From contig NW_024533092.1 in NCBI RefSeq assembly GCF_016097555.1, forward strand, positions 1 through 64,000: a stretch of 64,000 nt of DNA, given 5' to 3'. This document shows positions 2,617 to 45,416 of the stretch, one piece after another. Each line of letters starts with the position of its first letter. Positions within the stretch are counted from its first letter, which is position 1. The stretch comes from Gigantopelta aegis. Its lineage: Eukaryota; Mollusca; Gastropoda; Neomphalida; Peltospiridae. Made by a program: the position numbers and the translations under genes. A model generated the notes under the pieces. It saw only the letters and a program-made list of their open reading frames with translations, did no database searches and was not told the DNA's origin.

Positions 2617-5600
2617 ATGGCTGATAGTTGTTGGAACGAAAAACCAACTCTACACGAGTTATATGACATATCAAAGTTGATACTAAATGGTTGGTGTGCT
2701 ACTCAAGTTAAATACTAATAAGTTTAGGGATTGTTAGAAGATGAATGAAGACTGTGACCTCAAAACTATAAAATGTTACATTCCTACTGGAGAGCTATAC
2801 TCACCATATTGCTAAACTAACGAATAGTTAATTTTACAGCTACATATATAATGCTATAATCAAATAGTCTATATATTACATTTTTGATAAGAATACAATT
2901 GTTATTGTAACTGAATAACAAGTACTTTATATTCAAGATGTCAAAGAATATTAAAGAACACTGGCTACTAGCTTTAGTTATCCTCGAATCATGCAAGGAG
3001 CCATGATTTCTCAGTCATATACAAATGTATTGTTATGTAATCACTAAACAATGATATTATGCAAGCTGGTTTATTAAAGTTTTAAGGATTATTAACTGTT
3101 AACTTACAAAAAAGAGGAGTGGCTGACTAGCAAACCAGCTCGATAATCACCAACCATGCAACTCCATTTCAGAAGTTAGGTAAGGACTTTAACTGTACTA
3201 GATGGGTCAAAATATAGTCATAATATCTCTACAGATATTAGTTCATTTAGATGAAATACTACAAGTATTAAGAACTTGTAACTTCTCTCCACCAAATGGT
3301 ATACTCTTGGAGTAGATTTTAGGTCTACTAAAGCCAACACTAGATACTATTGAAGATGAATATCCACACAATGTCTCAAGATGTCTACTGGAGTGTATAT
3401 CTCAATGGTTGAAAAAAGCTGACAAAGTGATTAAGAAAGGAGAACCAACAGTGGACTCACTACTAGTGCTCTGAGGAATATTGGAGAAGTTGCTGCTGCA
3501 GAAAAGATTCTTGAATTGGTAAGTTTGTTTCATTGTGTAAATAATAATGTACATATGTATATAAACCTGCTTGTTTCAACAGAGAAGGAACTTTCTGTTC
3601 CAGCTTGTCGCGTATTTCAAGTTTGCAGTGGAAGTCTTCAACAAATCACACTTCCCAAGGAGTTTGATTCAGAGGTTATTATGGAAGGATTCATCTCAAA
3701 GGAAACATTACGAGAGTGAATACATCAGAAGGTTCGCCACTCTCTGGTAGTCTATTGAGATCATTATGTAGCACTTTGGCTAAATCCTAACAAGCTGAGA
3801 GCATTTGCGACAGTTTTAATACAATCAGAGGAAACACAAGACATTGGTAGAAATTATACTCAAGAAAGTGGTAAGTGGAACATGGCCTGTGTTAATTATA
3901 ATTATTTAACCTACCTTCTTGTTATAGAAGTAGCCCTTCTCCAACCTTATTCTCAGACTAATAACCTTTTTATGCACATTGAATTTAGGAGAAAAACCAG
4001 AGATGAGTTGAAGAAAACACTGAAGACATGCCAAGTTAAGAGAAAACTTATAAAGACTCATCCTCCTTAGCTGGCATTGTTTTATTTTAAAAGGCCTATG
4101 TGAGACTGATTAAGCAATGGCGTGGAACATTACCTCAAAAGGTTTGTTCACACACATCATGAGTAATATGATTTTATATTCTAAAGTAGATCATATTGAA
4201 AAGATCCAAATTATCTTTGAGCAGCTAAAAATGACAGTCACAGAAACTATAGTAGCTAAAGTCCCCACTAGATAAACTTAAAATTTATCTTCAATGGGGT
4301 TATAAAGAACTAAGACCTCAACTAGCTGCCGCAAAATCAGTCAAAGAAGTTTGCGTATTATTGAAGACAAGTACCACATTACTAATATCTATTGCTTAGA
4401 GATGATTGCTGAACGTTTCGTAATCAAAGAATTTGAAGATTGCATTCACTGCTTACAAAAAAGAGCTCAACCATTTTTGTGAGATAAAGATTAGTCAATA
4501 TTTAAATAAGAATTTTGGATCGATTTTATTTCCTGAACTTGCTATGTACTGATAAAATTTGTACTTGATTGGAAATCTGACCGGTGTACTTTTAATGATA
4601 TCAGAGATCTATTACACAGAGCTTATAAGAAATGGCCAATGATATCAATGTTAAGTTATAACAGAAGACAACTATATCACTGTAACTTGCTATGCTCCAC
4701 GACATATAATGGATGCTCTACTAATGGAAGCAGAGAAGAATCTTCATCTACTGAGGGAATTGGATTAATAAAACTAACTATTGGCTATCACACTATTTGG
4801 AATGAACATGCAAGAGATATGGTAAGAACCATACAATATGTATGTATGTATGTATGTATACACGCAGCAAACTAGACATCTCAATAGAGATACTGTTCAG
4901 TTTGAAGAGAGCAATAGAAAGCAAAGAAATATTAACAACTAGTGAGTATACTAGTGAATGACTGAATTTTATAAATATATTAGTAATATCTGGAATTAGA
5001 CAGAGTTAAGAGAAACAGAAATGCCCAAAGAAACAAAAGGTAAGATTGAATAATGTGAATTATAAAAAACAATACTTCCTCTTCTATTAATAGCTACTGG
5101 AGAACAAAATCAATCATCATTATTATCATCTGAATGTAATGAGACAATTATTAAGGAGGAGGTTTTTTCACAGAAAAACTCCTTAGCTGATACAGATCAG
5201 CTCATAATGGCGTTAATATCTCTTCTTGAAGGTGAGTATTTAGAGATCATTGTTTATATAAGCATACTGTTACACATTAGTTAGTTACCAGTGATGGCGA
5301 TGAACAGCAACAAGACCAACCATCAATTGACACTTTATCAGGTACATGTACATGTTATTAAAGTTATGACATTATTGGCATGTTGTGTGTAGCTATTATA
5401 ATCTATGTTTTATAATAGAACATACTGAAAGTGTTCAGTGGTATTTTGAATGTGTTGAACTTACTTCACCTACTAAGGACCAATGGGAACAAGTGATGAG
5501 TCGATTAAAAAGAAGTAGAATACACTGGAAAATTATTATTAAGTCATCATCTCCTGAGAGTGTACTACTAGTGTTCAGTAAAACTTGATGAATGCCCAGT

Positions 5601-5995
5601 CAAGGCACTTCATATAGTGAACACTCCTCTTAATAGCCGCTGTGTCACTAAATTATCTGATATATTAACTGAAAACAAAAAAAATGGAGGAACTACGTCT
5701 TTCCTATTCCTCCTCTCTCACCCTAACACTCTACAAATGATAACTAATGCTCTCTCAATAAAACACTACACTGAAATCATTATGGTTATTAAATGATGAT
5801 AACATTACAGACAATGATTTACCTCACATATGGTTATATTATATCCATTAACCAGAAAACTGAGAAGACTCTCTCTTGACTGTCCCAACATCACAGAATT
5901 TGGAGTACACCAAATCTCTAAAGTATTAGACAAAAATAATACACTAACTTATTTGTATGTCAATGGTAACAAGCTCCGTGGTGATAGGTTTTCTT
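2617..5995 (+). CDS. Gene A: Death/CARD-like adaptor with NLR-style LRR end
   Basis: A spliced gene on the + strand, more diverged than its neighbours. A first exon (ATG 2617, 'KPTLHELYDISKL') matches the N-terminal half of the Death exon of genes C and F. A second Death-type exon spans about 3233-3518 ('LGLLKPTLDTIEDEY', 'WLKKADKVIKKGEPT'). A CARD-like exon spans about 3580-3870. The recurrent alpha/beta domain spans about 4185-4822, with 'VTCYAPRHIM' and 'GLIKLTIGYHTIW'. Short coiled-coil exons run from 4880 to 5330. The end differs from the other genes: 5400-5995 reads as leucine-rich repeats ('LRRLSLDCPNITEFGVHQI', 'NNTLTYLYVNGNKLRGD'), the NLR-type LRR pattern, but no NACHT is visible. 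Frames break several times; at least some breaks look like 1-base consensus errors. It could instead be a decaying paralog. Function is inferred from domain types only. Confidence 0.55.
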
Positions 5996-6530
5996 GGAAT
6001 TGTTAAAATAACATGTACTATATAATCTTTATCATGTAATCACATATCAAAACAATGAAAAATTACCAATTGTTTAGTGGCACTATAGCAGTACTTAATA
6101 GTACTTGGGTTACATTGTCTTGAGTCTATTCATGTGTTTTCTACTGTGTAATGAAATAATGGTATATAGATATTTAAAAATGATCGTGGTAACACTAAAT
6201 GTTCCAAGAGGGCTAGTTTAAAAGTAAGAGCTAACACTCCAGCTATAGGATTACCTTCTCTTTAGACAAGGGTTACCAAGTCACATAAGTAGTCCTAGCT
6301 AGCAATAGCAGGGAATCCTGATACTAAGTAGAAGGACATATGTGGTGAAGTCAGTAGTCTTGTTTGGGCAACACAACACGAATTTTTAATTTTATAAATC
6401 TTGAATTGAATGTCCAGAAATCATAGAATATTTCAAGTCATTTTTGTTACATATGCATGTCATCTTGGCCTATAATATTTTTTAATTCTAAACAATGATA
6501 GAATGATAAGGTAATGTTGTAGAGTTCGGA
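5996..6530. other. Intergenic, with an old copy of a dispersed repeat
   Basis: I see no gene. Positions about 6215-6390 match, in opposite orientation and with much divergence, the GC-richer repeat at 36640-37150; shared words are 'agctagcaatagcaggga' and 'gtttgggcaacac'. This marks that sequence as a repeat family older than the local duplications. Confidence 0.6.
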
Positions 6531-7158: not shown

Positions 7159-7218
<60 letters not shown>

Positions 7219-7740: not shown

Positions 7741-7744
<4 letters not shown>

Positions 7745-7915: not shown

Positions 7916-10900
7916 ATGGCTTCCAACACTGAAGCTGAGGATATTACAAGCTACAGACGAGCTGTTATTGATGTGTTCGTCTCATACTATAACAGAATTC
8001 ACTCTGTACTGAAGGGAAGTATGGAGGATTTTACTGGTAGAGCATATTCAGCACATTTTTATATCCTCACAAAATATGGAGTTTGCTAATATATTTGAAC
8101 AGTTCAAAACTGGTTTTGAGTCTTGTAGGAGTATTTTTAGAGATACAACAACGATATAAATGTTTTATTGATATTCTTCTTGACATTGGTGGACCAGTGA
8201 AAGTTGTTGGGAATGAAATTGAAGAAAAACTATCAAATTGACTGGTAAGTTGTGAGAATTACACAAAAGTATTAACAGAAAGTAAAGAGTTGCAATGAAT
8301 ATACCGTAGATCGGGAAACTTTCGCGTTACAAAAAGTTTCATGTAAAAAATGTGTTATTATGTTTTTAAAAAATTTCAAAACATAAGAGATGTGTACGAA
8401 ATTTATTAACCCTATTTATTTCAATGTGTAACGTTCGTGTAATTTTATTTTCGTACATCGTCCAATGTTCAAATTTTTTAACAAACAAAACTTTCCCGAT
8501 CTATGGTATTTTTACTACAAAAAATTTAATTATAACAGCAGCTCACAGCAACAAGAGCAGTCCAGTAAAGTACTCCAGAAATACTCTCCAAGGCTCTCAA
8601 GAGACAAGGTAAGAGATGATTAATGCTAGATATATGCGTGTGTATGTTGATATATAGGAGGTGAGAGAGCTTTGAAAAAGAAGTTGCTCTACTCAAAGAA
8701 AAGTTGAACTACAGTAAACAAGAAGAGGGAAAAGATATAGATGATGTTAAAGGTGAGTTGTATGTATCTTTGAATATAATAATATCACATTAAATAAAAG
8801 CTACTATGATAAAGAATTAGAACCTGTTAAAAATGAGAGAGAAGTAGAGGAAAAGAATACACCAAAAGAAGTGAAGGTACAATGAAGGAGTACAGAAATA
8901 ATATATATCATTTAAATGAAGATTAGTATAATTCTATATGTGTAATATAATATTTACTCTCTTCTACATACTGTAGTATCTAATAGTATGGGACAGACAT
9001 GATCTGCCATTAACTGATGAGTCTTTGTCAGGTAAATACAATATAAGTTATAATATAATTATATGTTACAGAGAAACTGAAACTATTGGAGAGAACGAGT
9101 AAGGCAAAGACATAGAGATAGAACTGTTGACCAGAGAGAAAGAAGGTGAGCTATAGTACTGTTAGTAGTACATACCATATATGGTTTGTTCTATGGCTAC
9201 TGATAAAGTATTAGTAGAGAAACAAGAAGAGATTGAGAAGTTGACTAGAGAGAAAGAAGGTAAGCTATAGTACTGTTTAGTAGTACATACCATATATGGT
9301 TATGTTCTATGGCTACTGATAAAGTATTAGTAGAGAAACAAGAAGAGATTGAGAAGTTGACTAGAGAGAAAGAAGGTAAGCTATAGTACTGTTAGTAGTA
9401 CATACCATATATGGTTATGTTCTATAGCTATTGATAAAGTATTAGTAGAGAAACAAGAAGTTGACCAGAGAGAAAGAAGGTAAGTTATAGTACTGTTAGT
9501 AGTACATACCATATATGGTTATGTTCTATAGCTACTGATAAAGTATTAGCAGAGATAAAGTTGCCTATTCAACAAAAGCTACATACATCATCAGTACTGA
9601 ACCAAAAACAATGGCAGTCTAACAAACTAGGTAATACTTTTGATTCATTTTCTGGTTATCAACACAGGATTATACTAAATTTGTTAATAAGATGTTTCTG
9701 TTTGCCAATGGTTTTAGTAATTTATATCACTACCTATTACATGAGCCAAGTCATTGTAACATACATTGTAAGACTCATGTAAACAAAACAAGAATATAGT
9801 TTACTACAGGAAGCTGAATTAAGTTTGATCTAATAAGACTAAAATTTTAATGTTAATGATTTCATCTAAGAATGTTTCCTCAACAATATTGGTCTAACTA
9901 AAATAATTACAAAACATTCATTGGACTTCCAACAATGCTTAATAATGATGAGCAAAAATTGTAATGGATTTAGTTAAAATATTAGAGATTCATTGTTCAC
10001 TTATTCACTACTCATAATTTTGTCCTCTTAGGTTCATATCTATCATTAAAGGACTTGAGTACAGAGTTACAAGATATACGTGTAACACTTGATGATGATG
10101 AGCAAAAACTTGAAGATCAGATTCAATCAACCATACAAACATTAAGAGAACAGATCAGTAAAATTTTAAAAAAAAAAAAAAGAAGAAGAATTAATTGAGC
10201 AATGTCGCGAGATTTTTTGAAAGTAAACGCAAAATTGTAAATGAACAGCAGTTACAATGTAATGAGTTAATTCATAAATGTTCAATATATCTGGAGGAGA
10301 AACAAGAAGATAAGTTGGCAGAGGTGGACCAAAACATTAAGGCTTCTTGTTTGGGCCTAAATAAAGATTTTTTGGCAACTAATGTAGGTGTGTCTTGTGA
10401 TAACAAAGATATCACAGAATGTATTCAACGTCAACTTTATAGAATACAGCTACACAATGAACAACAGTCAGACACCAGTCAAAATGACCACATTATCTCA
10501 TGTGTAGCTGGTTTTACTAAACAACTTGCACTACCCAAGGATATACCTCACGTAAACTGGAGATTTGAAGCTCAGCTTGAAGGGGAGCCTACTACTGTAT
10601 TTGAATTATCCTGTCAGTCTGATGGGACATGTACATTTACTCCTACTAATCCTGGTTGCTATAATTTGAAAGCCATTGCTGATGATTGTACTATTGTAAA
10701 ACATGTAGCTGTACGACCTTATGACAGACCATACAAACCATTACGTAATATTGTCAACCCAAGATCTCGGTATTGTTCTATACGTGGGAATGAATTATTT
10801 GTTTACCTGTCGAAGTAATCCCGATATGCATGTATATGACCTTGAAACCGGCAAGATGTTACGTACTCTATGTGGTGACTTCAAACGTGGGAGAGGTATT

Positions 10901-11503
10901 GTTCTAAGAAAAGACTGTCTTTATGTTAATGATGCTGGAAGAAGTCAATTTGCAAAGGTGTCCTATGATACTAAGATATCACCAGTATGGTATAGTCGAG
11001 AAGGAGAAGCTAAGGGAGAGTTAAAATGGCCACTGGGTATGGAAATGGATGACCAAGGCAGATTGTTTATTGCCAACATGGGTAATAAGAGAATTGAGAT
11101 ATTTAAGCCATCATATTCTCCTATTGATTGGGAACCAGATTACAACATTACACTAGATTACAAGCCTTATGACCTTGCTTTTGACAGTGATGACAATATT
11201 CATATTGCTTGTGGTGAAAAGAACGAAAAAGTTGATCGAATTTTTATCTACACAATTGATGGTCGTAAAATTGGAGAGTATGGTAATGGACTAATTTGTG
11301 GTCCAGGAGGAATTGCTATTGATAAATATGGCTATCGATATGTAACAGAGTATAGCTTTGAAGGACGGTTAGTGATATTTAACAGAGAAGGACAGGTTGT
11401 CTCGACAAGTGATCCATTAAACTATCCAATGGGTGTATGTATTGACACAGATGGATCTATCTATGTAGCTTGTAATCTTTCAAACCGAATCGTCCAGTTT
11501 TAA
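7916..11503 (+). CDS. Gene B: CARD-like N-terminus, coiled coil, filamin-Ig and NHL propeller
   Basis: Exon 1 (7916-8244) encodes the shared all-helical N-terminal domain ('SYRRAVIDVFVSYYNRI', 'LKGSMEDF'), with a frame break inside. Exon 2 (about 8541-8608) follows an intron carrying a MITE. Small coiled-coil exons follow: 'EEGKDIDDVK' near 8720-8753, then exons near 8803-8876 and 9073-9146, then heptad exons at 9197-9479 and one from 9532. The last large exon begins about 10032. It has a coiled coil ('LEDQIQSTIQTLREQISKI'), a filamin-like Ig segment ('CTFTPTNPGCYNLKA') at about 10560-10710, then NHL repeats at about 10820-11503 ('DDQGRLFIANMGNKRIEIF'). A 1-base break falls near the Ig/NHL join. 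The coil-filamin-NHL order is that of TRIM2/3/TRIM71-type proteins, but no RING or B-box is visible; the CARD-like domain takes their place. Unlike A and C-F, no Death, ankyrin or VTCYAP part is seen. Confidence 0.7.
8302..8508. mobile_element. MITE, 207 bp, in intron 1 of gene B
   Basis: Terminal inverted repeats of about 21 bp: left TACCGTAGATCGGGAAA..., right the inverse of TACCATAGATCGGGAAA..., with two mismatches. The interior is AT-rich and non-coding. The other N-terminal-exon genes lack it. The family was not identified. Confidence 0.75.
9197..9630 (+). repeat. Tandemly copied coiled-coil micro-exons of gene B
   Basis: Copies at 9197-9259, 9313-9375 and 9428-9479, and a diverged copy from 9532, are separated by near-identical introns of about 52 bp ('gctatagtactgttagtagt'). 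The first two copies are 63 nt, phase 1 at both ends, encoding TDKVLVEKQEEIEKLTREKE plus one split codon: 21 residues, three heptads. The acceptor before 9197 and before 9313 reads 'ctatgg' where the other copies have 'ctatag', so these two exons may be skipped or use an AG further in. Confidence 0.8.
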
Positions 11504-12486: not shown

Positions 12487-15471
12487 ATGGCAGTTGGAGG
12501 AAAATTAACGTATTTTGACGACTTTTTGAACGATAACCAACTCTGTCTGAGTTATGTGAACACGTCAAACTTGGTACTGAGTGGTACGTGTTTGGTGTAC
12601 TCCTCGAATTAGATAACACAAAGCTGGATGCTATCAAAGTAATGAATGAAGAGAGTCCATATTTCAAAGCTACAAAAATGTTTGAATTATGGCTGGATAC
12701 TAACCCAAACACTTCAAGAAAAGGAGATTTTAGAAACCCTGGAGAAACCTGCCATTGGTAAGAATGCAGTTGCTAAAGAATATAAGAAAGTAATAAAAGA
12801 AAGTAAGCATTCAGTCTGGTTATTTAAATTTATTGCAATGAAATATCATCATTAATAGCGGTGCAAAAAGCAACAATAAATCAAATATTACAGACACATT
12901 CTGAAAGTCTTTCACACTTGGTTCTTCCAACTGATGTGACTCAGACATTATATACAGAGGGAGTCATCTCTAAGGAGACGTTTGATGAAATCGAGACCTC
13001 AAGTGGATCTCTAGTTGGTGGTTCATTGAAAGCTTTGTCTAGTGATGCATCTGAAGATCCTAGCAAGTTGAGAACATTTGGTACTGTCTTATTACATTCA
13101 AGGGACACTGTAGATGTAGCAAAAGATATCCTCAAAGATTATGGTAAGTGTTCATGGTTATTGAATATGTATAATTGTTATAATCTTACATTTAGACAAA
13201 AAACTTTCCACAAGTATATGTACCTTCACCTCAAAAGCAACCAGGTATAATCATTTTACTGGGTTTTATTAAATATTGCAAAAACTAATAATCCTTCTTT
13301 TCTAGACACTACTGCTCTCGGCACTCCATTACAGAATACTGGTATGGCAATAACTAAAAGTTAGTGTTTTTGAGTCTTATGGATTGATCAATATAATATA
13401 CTATCAGGCAATGTAACAGAGGTCCATCTTGAACCTGAATATCAGTACAAACTTGATGAAATAAAAGGAAAATTGGGTAAACTTTTTCTTACTGTAACCA
13501 CATCTTATTGAATCTACTGTTGGATTTGAGCTCAAAGAGTTAAAAAGGTCTCTTCGATTGTCTTATCCAGAGTTAATACCTCAATTGTCTAAAGCTGAGT
13601 CAGTAGATGATGTTATGGACATAGTGCGTAAAAAATGTACCATCATCAATATTGCCTGTTTGGAGGCTATTATCAATCATTGCAATATTGAAAGCGCTGA
13701 ACAAAGTGCCACAGCTTACAAATCAGAAGTTGAAACATTCTGTGAGAAGGTCAAACTTAGTGTGTGTAAAAATGAGAACTTCATAACCAGTTCATCCTCT
13801 CTACTGAAATGTGAGACTATTGAGTTTACACTAGAATGGAATATAGATGAACACACGCTTAGTGAAATTAAAGAGCTGTTATGGAAAGCGTTTGGAAAAA
13901 TTACTAAGAGAGTCTTAGTTAAAGTAGTAAATGAAACCAACTCTATCTTTGTAACCTGCTATGCTCCACGACATATAATGGATATTCTACTGATGGAAGC
14001 AGAGAAGAATCTTGACGTACTGAGGGGAATTGGATTAATGAAATTAACTATCGGCTATTGTACTGTTTGGGACATAACCACTAAAGATAAAGTAAGAGAT
14101 AAATAGTGTATATCTTTATAGTATATCTTCATGTTGATGTGTTGTTATAGTATGTAAAAGATCTTGAAGAAATGGTTATTGCACAAAGAAAGACATTAGC
14201 TGAGAATGATCAACTAATAATTGGATTGAAATCTTCTCTTGAAGGTACATTTACTACTTTAGGATTTTTATAATAAAGGATGTATACTACTATCACTATT
14301 ATAATGTCTCTCTTTTAGTTACTACCACTATGGACAAAGAACAACAATATCAATCATCAATTGACACTTTATCAGGTACATGTACATTAATTGAGATATT
14401 ACTATGTACCTAATGTAAATAGAGAAAATAAAACTATTGGACAGAATGAATAAGGCAAAGACATTAGAGATAGAGACGTTAACCAAGAGAGAAAGAAGGT
14501 AAGCTATAGTACTGTTAGTAGTACATACCATATATGGTTATGTTCTATAGCTACTGATAAAGTATTAGTAGAGAAACAAGAAGTGATTGAGATACTTCAG
14601 AAAAAGATAACAAGTCTAAGTTTACAACAAATAGTGAAAGAAGGTAAGCTATAGTACTGTTAGTAGTACATACCATATATGGTTATGTTCTATAGCTACT
14701 GATAAAGTATTAGTAGAGAAACAAGAAGTGATTGAGATACTTCAGAAAAAGATAACAAGTCTAAGTTTACAACAAATAGTGAAAGAAGGTAAGCTATAGT
14801 ACTGTTAGTAGTACATACCATATATGGTTATGTTCTATAGCTACTGATAAAGTATTAGTAGAGAAACAAAACAATAATTGTTTTTGTAGTATCCTTATCC
14901 TTCTGATTAGTAAAGGTCAATTAATTTTATTAACTCTAATCATGAGTGCTATTACAATAGGTATGACTGATCGTGCTTGAAACAAACTTCTTGCTAGTGC
15001 AAGTTTATGTCTCTGCCTATTTTTCTAACATTTCATAGCTATAGTCTTTTACAGACACTGCTGCTAATTATACAATCTTTGTATATCCCTAGACAGTGTT
15101 TCACTGTTAAGTTAGTATATTCCAAAACAATTATAGGATGAATTATATTTTTGTTTTAAATATTAATTATAATATTCATTATGTAGGAAAATGGGAGATC
15201 ATAGTAGCCTTTTCAATGTGTATCCTACTATTGGCAATTGTTATTACTAGCTTCACTATTACTGATATAAAGGAAGGTAAGATGGCACTCTAGACCCTAA
15301 AATGTCTACACATAATGAATGTATGGACAGATAATGAGTGCATGCATGCATATGGAAGAATGTGATATAGGACTCTTAAGACATATTTCAGCCTGGCATA
15401 CACAATGTGCCGCAAGGTTCTAAGATTATTTTGATGGTTTTGACCATATATATATATGCATATATACATAC

Positions 15472-15505
<34 letters not shown>

Positions 15506-17785
15506 TACGTTCTCTAGCTACTGATAAAGTATTAGTAGAGAAACAAGAAGAGATAGAGATACTGTTGAAGAAGATAACAACTTTACAACTAAGAGAGAAA
15601 GAAAGTAAGCTATAATGCTGTTAGTAGTACATATCATATATGGTTATGTTCTATAGCTACTGATAAAGTATTAGTAGAGAACAAAAAAGAAATAGAGATA
15701 CTTCAAGAAAAGATAATAAGACTATATTTACAACAAATGGAGAAAGAAGGTAAGCTATAGTACTGTTAGTAGTGCATACCATATATGGTTATGTTCTATT
15801 AGTAGAGAAACAAGAAGAGATTGAGAAGTTGACCAAAGAGAAAGAAGGTAAGTTATAGTACTGTTAGTAGTACATACCACCATATATGGTTATGTTCTAA
15901 AGTATTAGTAAAGAAACAAGAAAAGATTGAAAGTGAATTATAGTATTTTTAGTATTACACTGTGTACAAAACATGTATTTATTTGTAACTACAGAACATA
16001 ACTATATCTAAAGTTATGTTCTGTAGCTCTAAAAAGTATGAAGAGATAAATGAGCTTACTAGACGTGAAGAAGGTACTCTTGTGGCACATATATCACTAG
16101 GCACACATACATGTTAGTGTGCCTAGTGAGTTATATCATTGAGATATCTACTGTTATTACTCCCATATTAGTTTGTCTTTAGACTGCCTGATATTTTTAT
16201 CATCCTTAACTCCTTTCTTCTCAAATTTCAGGGAGTGTAAGGTTGAAATTAGACTTAACTTAGACTATAATTCTATTACGTTAAGTGTATAGTAATGATA
16301 GAATATGAAAAGGTGTCTTGACTTTTTATGAATGATGCTTGTCTGTTGGTGAGTACTAGTTAACTCCATTGGTAAACAACATAAACAACAAAATAAGTCA
16401 ACTTAGCACTACAGTGATACTAATAACAAATATTCTGTGTTGCCAAATATCTGGCTCTTATAGAATTGCAGTCAACAAGTATGGAAGAGTTGGAAAAATT
16501 ACATGAGATAATAACTACTCGTACTTTGCAGCTAGAAGAGAGTGAACAAAAGAACAAGCATTTACTGAGAACTTAAAAGGTATTTATAATGTAATGTCTG
16601 CATTCTGTCTATTAGTTCTGTTAGGATTGAGATCTGGTGTATTAGAGGTAAGACAACTGCTTAAAGGCAGTCATCCACAGTTGAGTCTAAAACTTGGGGA
16701 GACACTGACATATAAACGTAAGTTTTCTAGCATGCAAAACAATAAAGAATCACATATTGTACTCAATGATGACATAACCATGTTGTTATTTTTTAAATAC
16801 ATAAACAGATGCTAACGTACCATTGCTACTAGACAATCAGAAAGTATTACAAAGTCCACCAGTTCAAACTGTTATGGCTAATTTTAACTATTGCATGAAA
16901 AATGAAGAAGAGTGGTATAGTCCTAGTTTCCTCTCTCATACTAATGCCTATATAATGTGTGTTCGTATAGCAGCTAATGGTGAAGATGAGGGACAAGGAA
17001 CACATATGAGTCTCTATATCCATCTAATGGCTGGTAAAAATGATGACCTCTTGTCATGGCCATTTCGAGGAGAAGTAAAAGTTCAGCTCATTAATCGTAA
17101 AGATGATCATGATCACTATGAACAGAATATAGTGTTTAATGATTCCTCTAATGTACAAGCTTGTAGTCGAGTTATTAATGGTATTCCAGTCAAAGCTGGT
17201 CTAACAAATAGAGTAGGTGAAGGTAAAGCTCTCTTTATTCATCATGAGAAAGTTCAACTTAGTACTTTCTGATGAACCTGAATATCTGAGATTTGATAGC
17301 ATTAAACTTTTCATCAAAGATGTTATTGTCTATTCTTCTGACTTAGTACCCACTCCACATATTGAATCTTTGTCTGTTATTCACGATTTGTAATCAAAAA
17401 CTTTTCAAAGTGTAAAACAATCTAATGAAGAATCCATCAGTGAGCCATTTTATTCTCATGAAAATGGTTACAAATTGTCTCTTCTGGTCTATCCCAATGG
17501 CAGAGATAAATGGATAAACAAATATATCTCCATGTTTGTTCATCTCATGAAAGGTGAAAATGACAACGACTTAACATTTACATTTCGTGGTGATATTCTT
17601 GTTCAAAATTGTCAACTGGAGAGAAAAAAAGAGTCATGCTGAACGACTTGTGGAATTTAATGAAAAGACTGACCCAAAAGGAGAGTATGGGGCTCGTGTA
17701 ACAGGACTGGTTGCGTATTGTCAGGAAGACAATATCGAGGATATGGATTTCCAAAATTTTTATCACACAAGTTTTTGAAGTTTGA
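12487..17785 (+). CDS. Gene C: Death, CARD-like, VTCYAP domain, coiled coil with TM exon, two MATH domains
   Basis: Starts directly with a Death exon (12487-12802; 'PTLSELCEHVKLGTEWY', 'MFELWLDTNP', then the final helices 'EILETLEKPAIG' after a 1-base break). The CARD-like exon spans about 12861-13142 ('LYTEGVISKETFDEIE'). The recurrent alpha/beta domain spans about 13420-14104 ('SIFVTCYAPRHIMDILLM', 'GLMKLTIGYCTVWD'). Coiled-coil exons follow at 14151-14880, including two identical 93-nt exons. A transmembrane exon lies at 15187-15276. More coil exons run to 16580. Two TRAF/MATH domains occupy 16810-17785 ('WPFRGEVKVQLINRKDD'; second copy 'GYKLSLLVYPNGRDKW'). It lacks the N-terminal CARD-like exon and the ankyrin/second Death exons of D-F. 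Likely a membrane-anchored version of the family. MATH domains bind receptor tails or peptides in known TRAFs; the ligand here is unknown. Frames break in the MATH region. Confidence 0.72.
14551..14880 (+). repeat. Tandem 145-bp exon-intron unit in gene C
   Basis: Exons 14551-14643 and 14696-14788 are identical 93-nt, phase 1-1 exons separated by a 52-nt intron. A third copy starts at 14841 and diverges after about 30 nt. Related exons recur at 15517, 15656 and about 15799. Near-identity of intron and exon points to very recent copying or conversion. Confidence 0.85.
15187..15276 (+). other. Symmetric transmembrane exon of gene C
   Basis: Flanked by 'atgtag' and 'gtaagatgg', this 90-nt exon (phase 1 at both ends) encodes KWE followed by the hydrophobic run IIVAFSMCILLLAIVITSF and then TDIKE. 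It is one membrane span placed between two coiled-coil stretches. D, E and F have no matching exon. Because it is symmetric, skipping it would keep the frame and give a soluble protein. Confidence 0.75.
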
Positions 17786-27937: not shown

Positions 27938-27990
<53 letters not shown>

Positions 27991-32400: not shown

Positions 32401-34467
32401 GCTCCACGACATATAATGGATATTCTACTGATGAAAGCTGAGAAGAATCTTGACCTACTGAGAGGAATGGAGTAATTAAATTAACTATTGGCTATCATAT
32501 TATTTATGATGTAAGCACAAGAGATAAGTAGTACTAGATAATATATGTGTGTTGATATATAGGAGGTGACAAAACTTGAGAAGGTACTCAAAGAAAAGTT
32601 GAACTCCAGTAAAGAAGAGAAAGAAAAAGACATAGATGATGTTAAAGGTAAGTTATAATACTATAACTTATCAGCTACTATTGGTAAAAAACTAGAGCCT
32701 GTTAAACACAAGAGAGAAGGAGAGAAAAAGAAATTATCTACACAAAAAGAAGAGGAAGGTGTGACAAAGGAATAGATAAATAATATAATTATATATTTTA
32801 TATCAAGATTAGTAATTCCATATGTGTAATGTTATATTTCCTCTCTTCTACATACTATAGTATCTAGTAGTATGGACAGAGATGACCTGACTGGAGAGTC
32901 TTTGTCAGGTAAATACAATATAAATTGCAATGTAATTATATATTAACTGTGCATAGGAAAACTGAAACTATTAGATAGAATGAATAAGGCAAAGATATTA
33001 GAGATAGAGAAGTTAACAAGACATAAAGAAGGTAAGCTATAGTACTGTTAGTAGTACATACCATATATGGTTATGTTCTATAGCTACTGATAAAGTATTA
33101 GTAGAGAAACAAGAAGAGATTGAGACACTTCAGAAAAAGATAACAAGTCTAAGTTTACAACTAATAGAGAAAAAAGGTGAGCTACAGTACTGTTAGTAGT
33201 GTTAGTATTACACTGTATACAAAACATGTATTTATTTGTAACTACAGAACATAACTATATATATAGTATGTTCAGTAGCTCTAAAACATTCATGAAGAGA
33301 TAAGTATAGACCTAAAGAAGATACTCTTTGTAGCACATATATCATCATCATCATGCACACATAATCATAGTGTGCCAACCATCATTGAAATATCCATTAC
33401 TGTTAGTCCCATATTAGTTTTGTCTTCAGTTTCCCTTATATTTGTTTTCTAGTATGTAAACAATAAAGAATAACATTTTACTCAATTTTGACATAAACCA
33501 TGTTATTTTTTATTACATTAACAGATGCTAATATATCATTACTACATTACAATCGAAAAGTATTACAAAGTCCACCAGTTCAAACTGTTATGTCTAATTT
33601 TAACAGTTACAAGAATAGTGAAGAAGAGTGGTATAGTCCTAGTTTTCTCTCTCGTTCTAATGGCTATGAAATGTGCTTCATATAGCAGCTAATGGTGAAG
33701 ATGAGGGACAAGGAACACATCTGAGTCTCTACATCCATCTAATGGCAGGTAAAAATGATGACCTCTTGTCATGGCCATTTCGAGGAGAAGTAAAAGTTCA
33801 GCTCATTAATCGTAGAGATGATCGTGATCACTATGAACAGAATATAGTATTTGATGATTCCTCTAATGTACAAGCTTGTAGTCAAGTTATTAATGGTATT
33901 CCAGTTAAAGCTGGTCTAGCAAATAGAGTGGGTGAAGGTAAAGCTCTCTTTATTGGTCAAGACAAACTTCAGACCAATACATCTGACTTTCTAGAAGATG
34001 ATAGCATTGTAATTTGTATTAAACAAGTAATCGTTCATTCATCACCATCTATAGTACCTTCAACATCAAGTGATCCCTTGCCTGTTCTTGACTTTATAAT
34101 TGAGAACTTTTCAAAGCGTAAACAATCTAATGAAGAATGCATTAGTAAGCCATTTCATTCTCATGAAAATGGTTACAAATTGTCTCTTTATGTTTATCCC
34201 AATGGCAGAGATAAATGGAAAAACAAATATGTCTCCATGTTTGTTCATCTTATGAAAGGTGATAATGACAACAACTTATCATTTCCATTTCGTGGTGATA
34301 TTCTTGTTCAAATTGTCAACTGGAGAGAGAACAAGAGTCATGCTGAACGACTTGTGGAATTTAATGAAAAGACTGACAGAGAATATGGGGCTCGTGTAAC
34401 AGGACTGGTTGGTTTTGGTCAGGGATACAGTATCGAGGATGTGGATTTCCAAACTTTTATCACATAA
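29406..34467 (+). CDS. Gene E: CARD-like, alpha/beta domain, ankyrin, Death, CARD-like, VTCYAP domain, coil, two MATH domains
   Basis: The best-preserved family member. Exon 1 (29406-29733) has 'SYYDRIRLVLKGSMEDF'. Exon 2 is about 29811-29878. A large exon, 30080 to about 31024, holds a helical region, a first alpha/beta domain ('GSIIIKYNVLKSQANCFIAF') and an ankyrin stretch ('KVGHVEATQFLLELGANID'). Death follows at 31095-31377, then CARD-like at about 31427-31708. A small exon lies at 31755-31832, the VTCYAP domain at about 31887-32525 ('IIVTCYAPRHIMDILLM'), and coil exons at 32563-33176. MATH-1 and MATH-2 share the last exon region, 33525-34467 ('WPFRGEVKVQLINRRDD'; 'FPFRGDILVQIVNWRENK'). 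It lacks the Death exon that D and F have after exon 2; the gap is bridged by two palindromes. Three 1-base breaks are apparent. Likely a cytosolic oligomeric adaptor; partners are unknown. Confidence 0.75.
29860..29937. repeat. Inverted repeat at the exon-2 end of gene E
   Basis: The arms GGCAACCTTATAA and GTATGTGTATTTA on the left are matched in inverse on the right, with a few unmatched bases between them and a 20-bp centre. The left arm is the end of exon 2 and its donor site; the right arm is an inverted copy of it. Confidence 0.85.
29947..29988. repeat. 21-bp-arm perfect-centre palindrome in gene E
   Basis: Left arm AGAAACAAGGTAGGAATAAAA; its inverse follows with no spacer and one mismatch. 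The right arm merges into 'cttgtttcttttc', which in gene F is the intron sequence just before the alpha/beta exon (41190-41215). Confidence 0.85.
33084..33176 (+). other. Single 93-nt heptad exon of gene E
   Basis: Phase 1-1 exon encoding 'TDKVLVEKQEEIETLQKKIT' and on to 'LIEKKG'. Gene F has the matching 93-nt exon at 44098-44190. Both genes carry one copy, where B and C carry several. Confidence 0.75.
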
Positions 34468-35880
34468 GTTTTTAAAGTTTGATGAATCACGTAATACTCA
34501 GTATGTTAGTGATGATGATACTCTACATGTTAGAATAATGAAAGTAACACTTACTACTTGAGTAAAAGACAATTTACATAATGATCAACATATAATGTCT
34601 AATACAATAACCAACTTTTTCCGTTTATATATTATATTGTTTAGTTATTTAGCTTGAATTTTCTTTTGTTTATTAGTGTTACAATTATAATTGTTTTATT
34701 AAGACAGACATGTTCCTTTAATCAAGTGCAATATAAGATATAACTCCACTTTATACACCATGTCATCAGATCACAAGACTGGGAGTCATTAGTGCCTATA
34801 TCAAAATCATATTGATATTCATAGTTCATACAAAGCAGTCATTCTACTGCATTACATTTTATTGTGTATATTGCATTGAAACACTAGTGTTGTTAACCTT
34901 CTATACATATACTAACTAGTAATATAACTAGTGATTATTATCTGTAATGTGTATGGTCTATTAAGACAAAACCATTGATATATAGTTAGCAGTTCTTGAT
35001 GTTGTATTTCAACATGAGAATTACTACAGAGACAACAATGATAGGAGAGAGAGAGAGAGAGACAATTATATAACAAGTGATAATAAAAGACTGACAGAGA
35101 GTATGGGGCTCGTGTAACAGGGACTAGTTGGGTTTTTGTCAGGGGTACAGTATCGAGGATGTGGATTTCGAACTTTTTATCACATAAGTTTTTAAAGTTT
35201 GATAAATCACAAAAATACACAGTATGTTAGTGATGATGATACTCTACATGTTAGAATAATGAAAATAACACTTACTATTTGAGTAAAAGAGAATTTCACA
35301 TAACAGTCAGCATAAAATAATGTCTATTACAATAACTAACTTTTTTCCTATTATATATTATATTGTTTTGTTATAGTTTTTCTTATGCTTATTAGTATTA
35401 TAACAATTTTATTGAGACAGACATGTGACAGCCCATACTGCCCTGATTGAAGCTACTTGTGATACAATAGCAATTGATGACCATTCTAGATGAATGACCT
35501 GTAGCCAGTCTCTGCCCATGAGGCAGGGGGTTCCATCAATCAAGTATGACTTGAGCTATAACTCTACTTCCTATATCACATCATCAGATCACAAGACTAA
35601 GATCAATCAGTGCCTTTATCAAGATTATATTGATATTCATAGTTCATACAAAGCAGTCATTCTACTGTAATACATTTTATTGTGAATATTGCTTTAAAAC
35701 ACTATAGTCTTCTATACATATAATAACTAGTAATATAACTAGTGATTATTATCTGTAATGTGTATGGTCTATTAAGACAAAACCATTGATATATAGTTAA
35801 CAGTTCTTGATGTTGTATTTCAACATGAGGATTACTACAGAGACAACAAGAGAGAGAGAGACAATTATATAACAACTGAT
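34468..35880. repeat. 3' flank block R3 after gene E, tandemly doubled with the gene's last codons
   Basis: The segment 34367-35081 (last MATH-2 codons plus 3' flank) is repeated at 35085-35880, so a scrap of MATH-2 coding sequence ('gggctcgtgtaacagg') reappears downstream of the real stop. Within the second copy a segment of about 110 bp at about 35427-35531 ('cccatactgccctgattgaa') is absent from all other R3 copies and may be an inserted element. Confidence 0.75.
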
Positions 35881-37967: not shown

Positions 37968-38530
37968 TTAAAATTGAGTGTCCTGTTTAGCTTTCTTCTC
38001 TTTCAATCGTTTCTGTTGTATCAGATATTGATGACGTTTAAATGTCTGCCAGTAAGGATTAAGACGAATCATGACTTGTGAATTCTTTAGAGGGTTCTTC
38101 TTAATAGGAGCACGTCGAGATCGTCTGGGACTAGAGAGAAGAGAGTGAGTAAGCAAGTACAGTTATAAGAAATATTTACCCTTTACGTCTGAGCTGTTTC
38201 TGGACTTCTTCAGAGTTAATAATACGAGCTAAATCACTGTTTGTCATTGTGTGACGAGGTAACCTGTATAGGAGGAACAAAAAAGACAAAATATTATTAA
38301 TTATTAATATATAAAACAAAAAATTATGAACTAAACAATGGGTCCAGCATAACAATACTTACTTGTAATTTTTCTTGCATTTTGATAGCTTGTTAAATGT
38401 TCCATAAATTCGATCTAATTTCTCAAAGGCACTCTTTGTCCAAATACAAAATCGTCCCATGTGACCTCCAGGAGCAAGTCGTAACAAATTCACTTTATTC
38501 ACATTTAGCAGCTCCACTCCAAGAAGATTA
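37968..38530 (-). pseudogene. Truncated RPL4 copy (last two exons and part of exon 3)
   Basis: Minus strand: last exon 37968-38130 with an open frame ('[20 protein letters not shown]'), penultimate exon about 38183-38265, and the 3' part of exon 3 about 38370-38530 ('[20 protein letters not shown]'). It stops abruptly within exon 3 and runs into gene F's upstream DNA. There is no promoter or start, so no full ribosomal protein can be made from it. The true gene is at 48136-49602. Confidence 0.9.
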
Positions 38531-38997: not shown

Positions 38998-41900
38998 ATG
39001 GCTTTCAACACTGAAACTGAGGCTATCACAAGCTACAGACGAACTGTTAATGATGTTTTCGTCTCACAGTATCATAGAATCCGCTCTGTACTGAAGGGAA
39101 GCATGGAGGATTTTGCTAGCAGAGCACATTCAAAGCGGCTTACATCCTCACCAAATATGAAATTTGCTAGTATATTTAAACAGTTCAGAACTGGTTTTGA
39201 GTGGTGCAGGAGTATTTCAGAGATACAACAACGATATGAACGTTTTATTGATATTCTTCTAGACATTGGTGGACCAGTGGGAGATGCTGGGAAAGAAATT
39301 GAAGAAAAGCTATCAAGTTTAACTGGTAAATGTTTGTGATACAATAATGTACGTAATATTATAACTAATGTTAGTTCCTTGTCATTCTCTACAAGAAGGA
39401 GCGTCTTCCTTTGAACCACCCTAATCAAGAGAATACTTCTGATGATCAATGGCAACCTTATGACAGTATGTAACTTATTATGATTTATATAATATATGTG
39501 TGTTTTGTAGCATTACTAAATGATAATAAATGTTCCTTTCCTATAATAAGTGACCAGTACACATTAGCTGGCTTACCAAATGTTAAAGCTTATGATATCA
39601 ATGAATATATAATATTATAAGAGTACAGTTGACCAGAACAGAGTGTTCCCATTTCTATATATTATACAACTATGACATGACATGACATTCACAAATATGC
39701 ATGTGTGTGAGATAAATATGGTATTATTGACATGTATAACTGTAATATATGATATTTGTGAACTGTTGTACGCATGGCAGAATGTAATAGTATATGCTAA
39801 TGTATCATAGCAAGAGAATAATGTATTAATAATAAACATCACTGACTGTATATATTCTATATTTAAATGAGTAAGCTTAGAAGTTAAAATATTATCTGTT
39901 AATAACTAGTTATGAAGAAAATAACTTTATGAATATTTGACATTAACCAAACAGATCATGTTGACAAAATAGAGTCTTTTGTAAAATGTGAATTATTGAT
40001 CTTTGTTATTTTGATTTTGTCTTAACTTTTGAATAATAAAAGTTAACTGAAAGATTTTATTAACATGAGAATATTGATAAGTCATACAATATGGTATAGT
40101 TTAAACACAGAAGTATACTAATATATATGACTTGTCATGTAGTGTACTATATTAGTAAACATTTCTCTAAAGTAATCTGTTACTAGTGTTAATAAAATCA
40201 TTCATATGACTCAGTTTGGGGTAATACTGAGAACTTAGTATTCATGAGATGTTACATTCCTGTGTATGGAGATAAAGTATATTTATATGCTTTGTTTTGT
40301 ACAGCAATGTTGTTTTAATAGCTATACTTATATTCATTAAAATAAACAAACATCAATGACACTATCCAATTGTTAAAGTCAATATGATTTTTGCCATTTT
40401 TGGGTTGTTATTATTGACAAGTTATTGAAATTATTGTAGTGAGAAATTGCTGTATAATACTGATTCCCACAAAAACAATACATAATGACATGATATTTGG
40501 TTATATATGAGGTCAGGAGCATGTTAAAAATGGGAGAACAAGAACTTGAGATCTCTACTATAGGTGAAGCTTGCCATTGACTATGTTAATGTGTTCATAT
40601 ACTCTAGACTACAGATTGTGAAATACAAGTCACAAACAATAGAATACATAATAATTTATGAACACATTGTTAACATAGTCAATGCCAGCAAGATTTAACT
40701 CTATTAAGTGATTGTAGATATGTAATAAACAGAATGTAGTCAATCCCTTCTCTATATAATGTATCAATATACCAGTACATTAGCTATATACCTTGTAATG
40801 AGTTAGAAAATGGACCAATGATTGTGATCACACATGTATGAGGGCAGAGTCACTGTGTATGCATATAATTATAGATTGTATAGACAAGGTTATGTAATTT
40901 ATACAATCTATAATACAACTCTTCAAGCCCCACCTGACATAAACAGCTTTTTGCAATGACTGTTGGAGGAGATGTAGCATGTTTTGATGGTATTTTAAAT
41001 AAAAGACCAACTTTGGCTGAATTATGGGAAAATGTCAGAGTTGATGCTAATAAGTGGTACAAGTTTGGTGCACCTCTTGACCTAGGCACTAATAAGTTAG
41101 ATAATATCAAGCAACAATACAATGAGAGTGATATTTAATTTTAAAGATATTCCAATTGTGGTTTTTGCATGGACTTGTGTTTATCCCTAACTTGTTTCTT
41201 TTCTTTTTGTCATTGTCATGCTTACATCTTTCATTTTTTTAAAAATGTTTTATTACTTGTTTTATTATATTATCATTCCATATAGCTCACTCAAAGGAGA
41301 AAATAGAACAAGAAAGTGAAAAAAAGAAAAGAGTAGTTCAAACCCCTTTAAACTACGAATGTGATGACGACAAACTTCAACAATCACAATTAGTCGAGCT
41401 AACTGGATGTATAAACGTGATCTGAAATTGGCTATTGAGTCAATCATTCACAACAAATGCATTGATTTAAACAAGCTTTTCGATGAGCATAAAGTTTCGG
41501 TTATGAACACAAGTGAGAGGTTTCTCAAAAATGAACAAGTTGATCTCGAAACTCAATTGACAAATGTACATGACCAACATCATCTAAACATTCACATTAA
41601 GTTACGTATGCAGAAAAATTGTACTCCAAATCTTGTACAACGTAAACTTATAGAACATTTAGCTTTTTTTAGAGCTTTGTACAACAATATTGATCCAGGC
41701 TCAGATAGTGTCAAAATTGAATTGGAAGCTAATTATCTCATAGCTTTTGTTCAAGGCAAGCCACAGTTTCTGCACCTTGTCGGTATTTTTCATCTAGTAA
41801 TTAATGATGTAACCATTTTGAAAGAAAAAGAGAACATTAACTTTAGCTTTGATTCTGCCTTACTTGAAGCAGCTAAAGTTGGTCATATTGAAGCAACTCA

Positions 41901-44900
41901 AGTTTTACTTGAGTTTGGAGCTAACATTGATGTTGCTCTTAATGAAGCAAAAAAAGCTGAGAACAGCAGTGCAGTTGAATTTCTTTCTAAATGGGGAAAT
42001 CCACCAACTCCAAACACCTGTATTGGTAAGGTTTTACATAGCCATTGTGATTATAATTTATAATTTATACATAATACATTTAGATATCAGTCAATTAGAT
42101 GAGATACTGCAAATACTGAAAAAAAGTAATTTCTCTCCACAAAGCTGGTTTTCTCTTGGACTTAATCTCGGTCTTTCGAAACCAAGATTAAATTATATTG
42201 AAGCAGAGCACAATAAAAATGCATCTCAATGTCTACAAGAGTGCTTATCTCAATGGTTGAGTAAAGCTGACAAAGTGATTGAGAAAGGAGAACCAACATG
42301 GGACTCATTAGCTAGTGCTCTGAGGAATATTGGAGAAGTTGCTGCTGCTGAAAGCATTGAAATAAGTAAGAAGTTTATAATTTATAATATATTTTAACTT
42401 TTCTTTGTATTAAACAGAAATAGAACTTTCCCATCAAGCCTGTCAAATATTATTAAAACATTATGAAAAGCTTAGACAGCTTGTTCTTCCTGTGGAGATA
42501 TTATATACAGAGGAAGTCATATCTAAGGAGATATTTCATGAAATAAATAGATCAGGAGGTGTACTAGTCAATGATCAATTTAATGCACTATGTTCTATAG
42601 TGTCTGAGGACACTGAACAATTAAAACTATTTGCTAGTGTCTTACTTCAATCAAAAGAAACAACACCTGTAGCTGAGTTTATGCTCCATGAATTAAGTAA
42701 GTAATAAGTGAACTTCATAGATCAAAATATGTTATATTTTATAGAATTATTTACTATACTACATCAATCTCAAATATCAGATATGTCTTCTATAAATGAC
42801 CAAAAGACAGGAAAAGGTTTGTATTTACAACCTTTTAAAATTTTATTATGTTTAATAATACAGAAACTACTTTTGATCAAATGCGAAAATCTTTTGGTAT
42901 TCTTTTTAACACTATTGCTTGTCTCATTGAAGATAAAGTCCCTTCACTTAAGACCTCAAAACTTATCTTCACATGTATTATAATGAACTGAGGCTTCAAT
43001 TGGAATATGCTGAATCCTTTGAAGGAATCATGCTTATCATTAAAGACAAATGCACCATTATTGATATCGACTGCCTACAAACTGTTGTAAATCACTTTAA
43101 TATTGAAGAAGCCAAAGATCATATAACAGATTATCAACAAGCAATTGAAGAATTCTGTGAAGAGACTAAACTTAATGTTTGTTATAATGAGTGTTTCAAT
43201 TCAACTAATTCTTCTCTTCTCAAATGTGAGACAATTGAGTTTGTTCTAGAGTGGAATGGAGATGAACACTCACTTAATGACATCAAAGTTTTGTTACAAA
43301 GGCCTTTCAAGAGATGGCTAATAGAATTCAAGTTCGATACATCAAAGAAGGCATTATTGTAACCTGCTATGCTCCACAACATATAATGAATATTCTACTG
43401 ATGGAAACAGCGAAGATTCTTGACCAATTGAGGGGGAATGGATTAATGAAATTAACTATTGGCCATCATATTGTTTATGATGTCTATGCTAGAGATAAGG
43501 TAAGAAATGAGTAGTACTAGATAATATGTGTGTATGTTGATATATAGGAGGTGAGAGAGCTTGAGAAGGAAAATGCTCTACTCAAAGAAAAGTTGAACTC
43601 CAGTAAACAAGAAGAGGGAAAAGATGTAAATAATGTTTAAAGGTAAGTTGAATGTATCTTTGAATATAAGTAATAATATCACATTTAAAATAATAGTTAC
43701 TAGTGATGAAGAATTAGAACCTGTTAAATATAAGAGAAAGGAAGAGGAAAAGAATACACTAAAAGAAGTGGAAGGTAAAATAAAGGAGTACAGAAATAAT
43801 ATATATAATTTATATGATGATTAGTATAATTCCATATGTATAATGTAATATTTCCTCTCTTCTATGTACTATAGTATCTAGTAGTATGGACAGACATGAT
43901 CTGGTTGAGTCTTTGTCAGGTAAATACAGTGTGAATTATAATACAATCATATATTAACTGTGTACAGAGAAGCTAAAACTATTGGAGAGAATGAATAAGG
44001 CAAAGACCTTAGAGATTGAGAAGTTATCCAGACAGAATAAAGAAGGTAATCTATAATACTGTTAGTGGTACATACCATATATGGTTATGTTCTATAGCTA
44101 CTGATAAAGTATTAGTAGAGAAACAAGAAGAGATTGTGATACTTCAAGAAAAGATAACAAGACTAAATTTACAACTAATAGAGAAAAAAGGTGAGCTATA
44201 ATATTTTTATATTACACTATGTACAAAACATGTATTTATTTGTAACTACTGAACATACCATATATATGGTATGTTCAGTAGTTCTAAAACAAACACGATA
44301 AGATAAATAAGTTAATGAATAAATCACTATTGATATAAATAGAGGACAAACTTAAGATGAAGCAATTAAAAATCAGACAAATGAAACAAAAAATTGAGTA
44401 TTTGCTTTAACTGGTAGCTCTAATAATACATTTCTTTGTTACAGGTTCACGAGTACCATTACTGTATGATGGTTGGAAAGCAGAGTTACAGAGTCCACCA
44501 GTTCAAACTGTTATGTCTAATTTTAACTATTACAAGAATAGTGATGAAGAGTGGTATAGTCCTAGTTTTTCTCTCTCATAGTAATGGCTATCAAATGTGT
44601 GTTCGTATAGCAGCTAATGGTGAAGATGAGGGACAAGGAACACATCTGAGTCTCTATATCCATCTAATGGCAGGTAAAAATGATGACAAGTTGTCATGGC
44701 CATTTCGAGGAGAAGTAAACATTCAACTCATTAATCATAGGGATGATCATGATCACTATGAACAGAATATAGTGTTTGATGATTCCTCTAATGTACAAGC
44801 TTGTAGTCGAGTTATTAATGGTATTCCAGTCAAAGCTGGTCTAGCAAATAGAGTAGGTGAAGGTAAAGCTCTCTTTATTGGTCAAGACAAACTTCAGACC

Positions 44901-45416
44901 AGTACATCTGACTTTGTATGTGACAGTATTAAAATATGTATTAAACAAGTAATCGTTCATTCATCACCACCTACAGTACCTTCAACATTGACTGATCCCT
45001 TGCCTATTATTCATGACTTTGTAATTGAGAACTTTTCAAAGCGTAAACAATCTAATGAAGAATGCATCAGTGAATCATTTTATTCTGATGAGAATGGTTA
45101 TGAAATGTCTCTTTTAGTTTATCCCAATGGCAGAGATAAATGGAAAAACAAATATGTCTCCATGTTTGTTCATCTCATGAAAGGTGAAAATGACAACAAA
45201 CTAACCTTTCCATTTCGTGGTGATATTCTTGTTCAAATTGTAAACCTGAGGGAGAACAAGAGTCATATTGAACGACTTGTGGAATTTAATGAAAAGACTG
45301 ACCCAAGAGAAGTATATGGGGCTCGTGTAACAGGACTGGCTGCATTGTTGTCAGGGAGACAGTATCGAGGATATGGATTTCCAAGTTTTTTTATCTCACA
45401 AGTTTTTGGAGTTTGA
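38998..45416 (+). CDS. Gene F: CARD-like, Death, alpha/beta domain, ankyrin, Death, CARD-like, VTCYAP domain, coil, two MATH domains
   Basis: Exon 1 38998-39325; exon 2 about 39396-39465; Death exon from ATG-like 40956 ('RPTLAELWENVRVDANKWY', 'LGTNKLDNIKQQY'). The alpha/beta domain and ankyrin stretch ('KVGHIEATQVLLEFGANID') are at 41286-42025. Death follows at 42084-42365 ('SFSLGLNLGLSKPRLNYI'-like) and CARD-like at 42418-42696 ('LYTEEVISKEIFHEIN'). A small exon is at 42745-42815, the VTCYAP domain at about 42865-43500, and coil exons at 43549-44400 including the 93-nt exon 44098-44190. Two MATH domains lie at 44446-45416 ('WPFRGEVNIQLINHRDD'). It is the full-architecture version, paralogous to E through the 10-kb duplication, but keeps the Death exon and large intron that E lost and lacks E's transposon. 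Few frame breaks. Intron 2 holds a second promoter-like block, so a shorter Death-first transcript is possible. Confidence 0.75.
39480..40690. other. Large intron of gene F, shared with gene D
   Basis: Matches 20500-21714. It includes the hairpin element at 40565-40692. No exon seen. Confidence 0.6.
40565..40692. mobile_element. Hairpin element (MITE-like), copy in gene F intron
   Basis: Corresponds to 21571-21706: arms around 'actatgttaatgtgttcata' and its inverse 'aacacattgttaacatagtc'. Confidence 0.5.

Follow-up and report, generated by a model that had tools for sequence, protein, structure and literature searches.

The window analyzed here, that is, the whole stretch of 64,000 nucleotides from contig NW_024533092.1 of the Gigantopelta aegis assembly, contains an array of six gene copies, A to F, at about 3.2-45.5 kb of the forward strand. 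Self-comparison of open reading frames (ORFs), exon alignments, and tblastn searches with each module show paralogous exons in a repeated order. The array is probably a tandemly duplicated, partly decayed cluster of a sponge lineage-specific Death-fold/TRADD-N family, whose C-terminal ends were exchanged by recombination; the label "sponge" is used because all named relatives are from Amphimedon. It is a further case of an already described family, in a genome other than Amphimedon's. New here are a relative with an NHL end (copy B), an end not named in the describing paper, and unusually clear DNA evidence for the exchange of ends. The coordinates of all features are given in Table 1.

Exchange of ends behind old front blocks is supported at the DNA level. 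In copy C, the front part is old relative to D, E, and F and the MATH end is young: the synonymous divergence (dS) from these three copies is 0.75-0.81 in the DED-TRADD-N exon and 0.20-0.25 in MATH. The identity of C to F is 71% over positions 13633-14107, 88% over 14421-14670, and 87% over 16847-18414, and the switch falls directly before the repeated coiled-coil exons. In a 70-row tree of the DED-TRADD-N exon, C groups with the family ORF P0021 (100/99), and E and F group with P0031 (100/94); thus the front blocks come from different subfamilies. Positions 8600-9238 of B are 85% identical to 43491-44139 of F (a 661-bp block), and since the shared stretch begins in F at the end of the TRADD-N exon, B lacks exactly the block between the first exon and the coiled coil. 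A 61-bp piece of coiled-coil exon and intron occurs seven times with up to one mismatch (0.00 expected from shuffles), namely, twice in B, three times in C, and once each in E and F. Module exchange, which the original prediction had proposed, is therefore upheld by the mosaic ages of the DNA, by the tree, and by genes of Amphimedon and of the same assembly that carry the same front block with other ends.

The coiled-coil units are identical to 98-100% in places and are repeated, which is where assemblers fail, so the mosaic might have been built from reads of different copies joined at these units. This is very improbable: from MATH into the 3' flank, over 1.6 kb, the young zone of C keeps an identity of 87% rather than 98-100%, and hence represents neither E nor F; likewise, the block shared by B is only 85% identical. 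Copies E and F arose by duplication on the RPL4 side of the array. The two copies agree at 78-93% in homologous exons and at 96% in their distal spacers (2640 columns), and a fragment of an RPL4 exon between them marks the duplicated unit. In some introns and spacers the identity (96-98%) exceeds that of exons, which gene conversion would also produce. Downstream of E, the C-terminal part of MATH and the 3' flank recur in a second, incomplete copy.

Table 1. Features of the array and its surroundings (window positions; TRADD-N denotes the most likely identity of the RRM-like domain)
Feature	Position	Strand	Parts	Remark
Copy A, remnant	3234..6005	+	Death-2 3238-3509; CARD 3588-3851; DED-TRADD-N 4265-4828; coiled-coil pieces, then LRR tail 5421-6005	stops and breaks throughout
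Copy B	7916..11503	+	first exon 7916-8243; coiled-coil exons 8652-9555 (tandem units 9114-9555); coiled coil and NHL exon 10031-11503	no Death, CARD, DED, TRADD-N, or ankyrin exons
Copy C	12489..17862	+	Death-1 12489-12801 (broken); CARD 12858-13142; DED-TRADD-N exon 13498-14103, open (TRADD-N ~13777-14090); coiled-coil units 14150-15940; two MATH 16809-17862 (broken)	
Switch zone in C	14107..14421	+		left of it, old and divergent front block; right of it, young end with coiled coil and MATH
Copy D	20017..26660	+	first exon 20017-20351; ankyrin exon 22275-22954; Death-2 22994-23285; CARD 23335-23614; DED-TRADD-N 23801-24450; MATH 25597-26660	many breaks
Copy E	29406..34563	+	first exon 29406-29735; ankyrin exon 30083-31026; Death-2 31094-31378; CARD 31427-31708; DED-TRADD-N 31886-32530; coiled coil 32563-33175; two MATH 33524-34563	
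Partial MATH copy	35087-35276			downstream of E
RPL4 exon fragment	38362..38529	-		56 aa, 96% identical; between E and F
Copy F	38998..45495	+	first exon 38998-39328; half Death-1 40956-41126; ankyrin exon 41285-42028; Death-2 42083-42366; CARD 42418-42698; DED-TRADD-N 42864-43499; coiled coil 43547-44412; two MATH 44446-45495	fullest copy
Residues lost in F	~43346-43360			in-frame, relative to E
Tandem coiled-coil exon and intron repeats			9114-9555; 14466-15934; 33000-33125; 44011-44139	several copies in B and C, one each in E and F
Open RPL4 exons	48557-49483	-		right edge of array
Tandem repeat	53121-53461			20-bp unit, ~17 copies
ORF	61018-61455			open, 145 aa; no Pfam match at 0.1

The original prediction saw six genes built from one kit. 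The repeated order of paralogous exons bears out the array, but the kit is not common to all six genes, as follows from the distribution of modules determined by tblastn with each module at 1e-3. The first exon is confined to B, D, E, and F and the ankyrin exon to D, E, and F; neither was found in A or C. Death-1 was detected in C and, by half, in F, and was not found in E, while in D it is seen as a match in the DNA alignment (73% over 165 nt); a piece of Death-1 seen by eye in A, from position 2617, gave no tblastn match. Death-2 occurs in A, D, E, and F, the CARD and DED-TRADD-N exons in A, C, D, E, and F, the MATH exons in C-F, and NHL in B. Copy B was matched at 1e-3 by 0 of 71 family proteins, and no Death-CARD-DED-TRADD-N block was found in it, so that B, formerly taken for a Death-domain gene, is related to the other copies via the first exon and the coiled coil only.

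For the Pfam scan, the protein of copy F was read by hand over introns and frame breaks. Read through in this way, its Death domain scores 30.4 bits against a cut-off of 22.6, and the N-terminal Death domain of C, also read across breaks, scores 26.7 bits (6.1e-06), which confirms the Death assignment and places the copies among proteins with one to three N-terminal Death-like domains. Two TRAF-type MATH domains, predicted earlier for C-F, were recovered in the ORF of E (4.3e-38) and in F read through (7.5e-45). The "filamin-NHL" end of B has proven right in its NHL repeats (9.1e-11); no Filamin match was found at E<=10. Ankyrin and LRR matches in the window, the ankyrin match of F among them, stay below the Pfam threshold, and the LRR end of A draws support instead from its tail, which resembles that of LRR-ended family proteins in Amphimedon (P0015: 42% over 45 aa, 5e-07, in a search of long proteins only). 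Thus the predicted proteins gave Death, MATH, and NHL above the cut-offs, with LRR sub-threshold and no CARD match for the first exon, and the C-terminal domain is variable, with MATH in C-F and the LRR tail in A.

Judging by sequence comparisons and a predicted model, the front block would consist of Death, CARD, and DED followed by an RRM-like domain. In the model of the relative P0003 these four folds were all matched, with death-fold proteins at ranks 1-17, and the predicted RRM-like part has the beta-alpha-beta-beta-alpha-beta order of the variable TRADD-N family. The exon originally described as a "VTCYAP" alpha/beta domain appears to encode DED and this RRM-like domain, most likely TRADD-N. 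TRADD-N is the best fit because of the fold model, a conserved serine, and sub-threshold matches to PF13820. The serine, in the turn between beta2 and beta3, is conserved in 35 of 39 alignment rows, which include window copies C and E. PF13820 was matched below threshold in 7 of 41 family members (best 0.013) and is the top match of the family consensus (0.022, 15 bits against a cut-off of 22.5). No PF13820 match was obtained with window exons scanned alone, no TRADD-N match was found among solved structures sought by profile, and the TRADD-N crystal structure is absent among the fold matches listed for the model. In F, residues N-S of the conserved turn are lost.

The first exon, originally called CARD-like, has no recognisable domain and no Pfam match; the CARD is another exon, one that the original prediction did not mention. 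Among PDB sequences it gave one meaningless match (0.75), and its model (predicted local distance difference test score, pLDDT, 75), built from four rows only, shows no death fold among the best 50 matches listed by Foldseek or VIA, an absence that, given the four rows, is no proof against CARD. The possibility that the ankyrin exon is a repeat of the TRADD-N exon was rejected, as comparing single sequences gave only 29% identity over 51 aa at E 0.025.

In the assembled sequence, every copy contains frame breaks or stops, and D is heavily damaged. Copy-specific frame-shifting indels number 4 in C, 18 in D, 1 in E, and 4 in F in the MATH exon. In the DED-TRADD-N exon they number 12 in D, 2 in E, and 2 in F in a three-row comparison, or 0 in C, 10 in D, 1 in E, and 1 in F in a four-row one. 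The corresponding counts are 8, 0, and 0 for Death-2 in D, E, and F (2 for A in a separate run), 2, 2, and 0 for CARD, and 10, 4, and 3 for the ankyrin exon; the first exon has 2 in B, 3 in D, and 0 in both E and F. The consensus used for these counts retained stops in DED-TRADD-N (10 in the three-row and 3 in the four-row alignment), the ankyrin exon (8), the MATH end (4), and CARD (1, terminal), which makes the synonymous and nonsynonymous labels there unreliable. The ratio of nonsynonymous to synonymous rates (dN/dS) was computed without codons containing gaps or stops, and for MATH over the first 320 codons.

These breaks in every copy, the N-S loss at the turn of F, and the ratio of indels to substitutions in E and F, which is similar for coding sequence (MATH and DED-TRADD-N, 0.06-0.13) and 3' flank (0.12-0.14), would fit a set of six pseudogenes that arose through tandem duplication next to RPL4 and whose differing ends are accidental joins without a product. 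This explanation is possible but doubtful, since dN/dS is 0.43-0.49 in the comparisons of C over the DED-TRADD-N exon, which reflect its older history, and 0.66 for E-F overall, values which indicate that selection was active over most of the history. Moreover, long open exons persist, for example, the 202-aa DED-TRADD-N ORF of C and the Death and CARD exons of F, and family exons on contig C913 are open. Pairwise dN/dS per module ranges over 0.40-1.17, which does not show diversifying selection.

Alternatively, the genes may be intact, with breaks that stem from consensus errors, the contig being small and perhaps of low coverage. The window lies in a contig of 98 kb (C929) in an assembly of 1.15 Gb and 5216 contigs, many breaks are of 1 bp, some of them in homopolymers, and the indel excess of D continues into its 3' flank (9 indels, 15 substitutions), so that decay and poor consensus look the same. 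We hold this explanation, too, to be rather doubtful: reading frames are uninterrupted in two RPL4 exons of this contig and in the family exons on C913, and neither the lost residues of F nor the half Death-1 of D and F are simple base errors. The copies give the impression of partial decay and not of six functional receptors.

Another explanation is that the exons of the front block are transcribed separately from those for the LRR, NHL, or MATH ends. In F, about 1.5 kb of non-coding DNA indeed separates the first exon and a short second exon from the next module; but splice-site motifs from Death to MATH are in place at 19 of 19 positions in F (the motifs were read from the sequence and so speak for positions alone), SH3, kinase, and LRR ends follow the block in gene models of Amphimedon, and MATH ends are among those listed by Kaur et al. 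(PMC8195603). Separate transcripts are thus quite improbable.

Relatives of the array were found in Amphimedon and in the same assembly. The front part of F (residues 1-860) retrieved one protein, LOC109584611 (P0001) of Amphimedon queenslandica, whose residues 1-470 in turn retrieved at least 11 proteins, the query included, all from Amphimedon (scoring was confined to the 7992 candidates with the most shared words, and the match of P0011 extends over 26% of the query). The F block is collinear with the nearest of them at 30-38% over ~400-450 aa. Their ends differ: SH3 is above the cut-off in P0005, P0006, P0007, P0009, and P0010 and sub-threshold in P0002 and P0011; P0006 (LOC100638399) ends in SH3, SH2, and a tyrosine kinase; COR-A in P0008 and LRR in P0001 and P0002 are sub-threshold; and Pfam found no end domain in P0003 and P0004. 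A profile search yielded 61 proteins, 5 named ones from Amphimedon and 56 unnamed; among the matches, P0016-P0069 are ORFs of 232-469 aa, and P0070 and P0071 are weak NACHT-LRR matches.

Contig C913 of the same assembly contains a sister array, in which all exons are open. A Death exon (4.2e-10) is followed by CARD (7.6e-07) and DED-TRADD-N (2.5e-43) exons, both found by tblastn and without a Pfam match. Next come an exon for SH3 (3.4e-11) and an LRR-like one, the latter without an LRR match (0.001 in a neighbouring exon). An open 201-aa ORF of this array (L014:3185-3787) has a DED match below the cut-off (1e-05). The family queries gave no match in the 5 kb beyond the window or on two contigs with Death matches (C1059 and C631, 8 and 7 kb). 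The base composition of C929, C913, C1043, and C722 (GC content 0.30-0.32, CpG ratio 0.21-0.47) contrasts with that of most sampled chromosome-size contigs (CpG ratio 0.70-0.91 in stretches of C1, C2, C4, and C9; 0.37 in C8 and 0.45 in C13), which hints at sponge DNA inside another animal's assembly.

We suggest that the front block is followed by small, partly tandem-repeated coiled-coil exons, which link it to an end that can be exchanged (LRR in A, a pair of TRAF-type MATH domains in C-F), while B retains only the first exon and coiled coil ahead of an NHL propeller. Duplication and recombination, switching at or beside the coiled-coil exons, have most likely put new ends behind old front blocks, as the mosaic DNA supports. 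The ends could bind a partner or ligand, the coiled coil could oligomerise, and Death, CARD, and DED could then nucleate a signalling complex, C-F possibly working as TRADD plus a TRAF tail in a single chain without RING or zinc fingers. Vertebrate TRADD-N binds the MATH domain of TRAF2. According to PMC10055258, FADD of Amphimedon is supersaturable and its receptor and effector partners are not, a precedent for nucleated assembly by sponge Death-fold adaptors; and Kaur et al. propose that TRADD-N keeps its neighbours inactive until a signal (PMC8195603). A stronger joint claim strikes us as unlikely as a whole: that recombination takes place in the near-unchanged coiled-coil exon and intron unit of B, C, E, and F, where one Death-CARD-DED-TRADD-N block acquires LRR, NHL, or TRAF-MATH ends, and that TRADD-N and MATH of C-F, which in vertebrates are partners in trans, act in cis as a built-in switch.

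The original prediction knew of no described family with this combination; the class is in print. Kaur, Iyer, Burroughs, and Aravind (eLife 2021, PMC8195603) describe 357 Amphimedon TRADD-N proteins that have Death-like domains and differ in their ends, which include LRR and MATH. The NCOA6-clade TRADD-N proteins of A. queenslandica share with the window copies one to three Death-like domains, TRADD-N, and a variable C-terminus (ankyrin, SH3 plus LRR, kinases, SH2, MATH); the window copies differ in forming an array at one locus of another genome, and in their two MATH domains, extra first exon, and frame breaks. An immune or cell-death function of the array genes may be proposed at the level of the family, as it was, also by inference, in that paper. 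There, fast exchange of ends was inferred from protein lists and retrotransposition suggested as at least one source; the array shows a second route at the DNA level, recombination within a tandem array with datable switch points in coiled-coil exons. "NHL" has 0 occurrences in the main text of PMC8195603, and in the literature searched, supplements of that paper excepted, an NHL end behind the Death-CARD-DED-TRADD-N block is not mentioned. Of single proteins, LOC100638399 has a block collinear with F (38% over 447 aa, 3.5e-84 within a small set) and differs by its SH3-SH2-tyrosine kinase end, and LOC109584611 (34% over 450 aa) differs by an end of coiled coil and sub-threshold LRR.

Copy B resembles TRIM-NHL proteins in its coiled coil followed by an NHL propeller, and differs by the lack of a Filamin match and by its first exon, which is the helical exon of the array. 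Its closest solved proteins are designed propellers, followed by bacterial PknD (1.5e-20, the best natural match), TRIM71 (7.4e-18), and further by Thin, TRIM3 (4.7e-13), TRIM2, and Brat (3.5e-09). Membership in the NLR proteins was rejected, as F has no NACHT match at E<=0.1 and the NACHT-LRR proteins P0070 and P0071 matched weakly, and membership in the TRAF proteins was rejected, as F read through has no RING or zinc-finger Pfam match at the same threshold. The likeness of C-F to vertebrate TRADD and TRAF lies in TRADD-N-like and Death domains, a coiled coil (read from the sequence without a program), and TRAF-type MATH, the MATH pair being nearest to TRAF1, 5, 4, 2, and 3 (TRAF1 7.8e-17; TRAF2 in the TRADD complex, 1f3v_B, 5e-09). 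In contrast to the vertebrate system, everything is in one chain and MATH is doubled; with TRADD-N and the domain of its vertebrate partner thus combined, an interaction in cis becomes testable.

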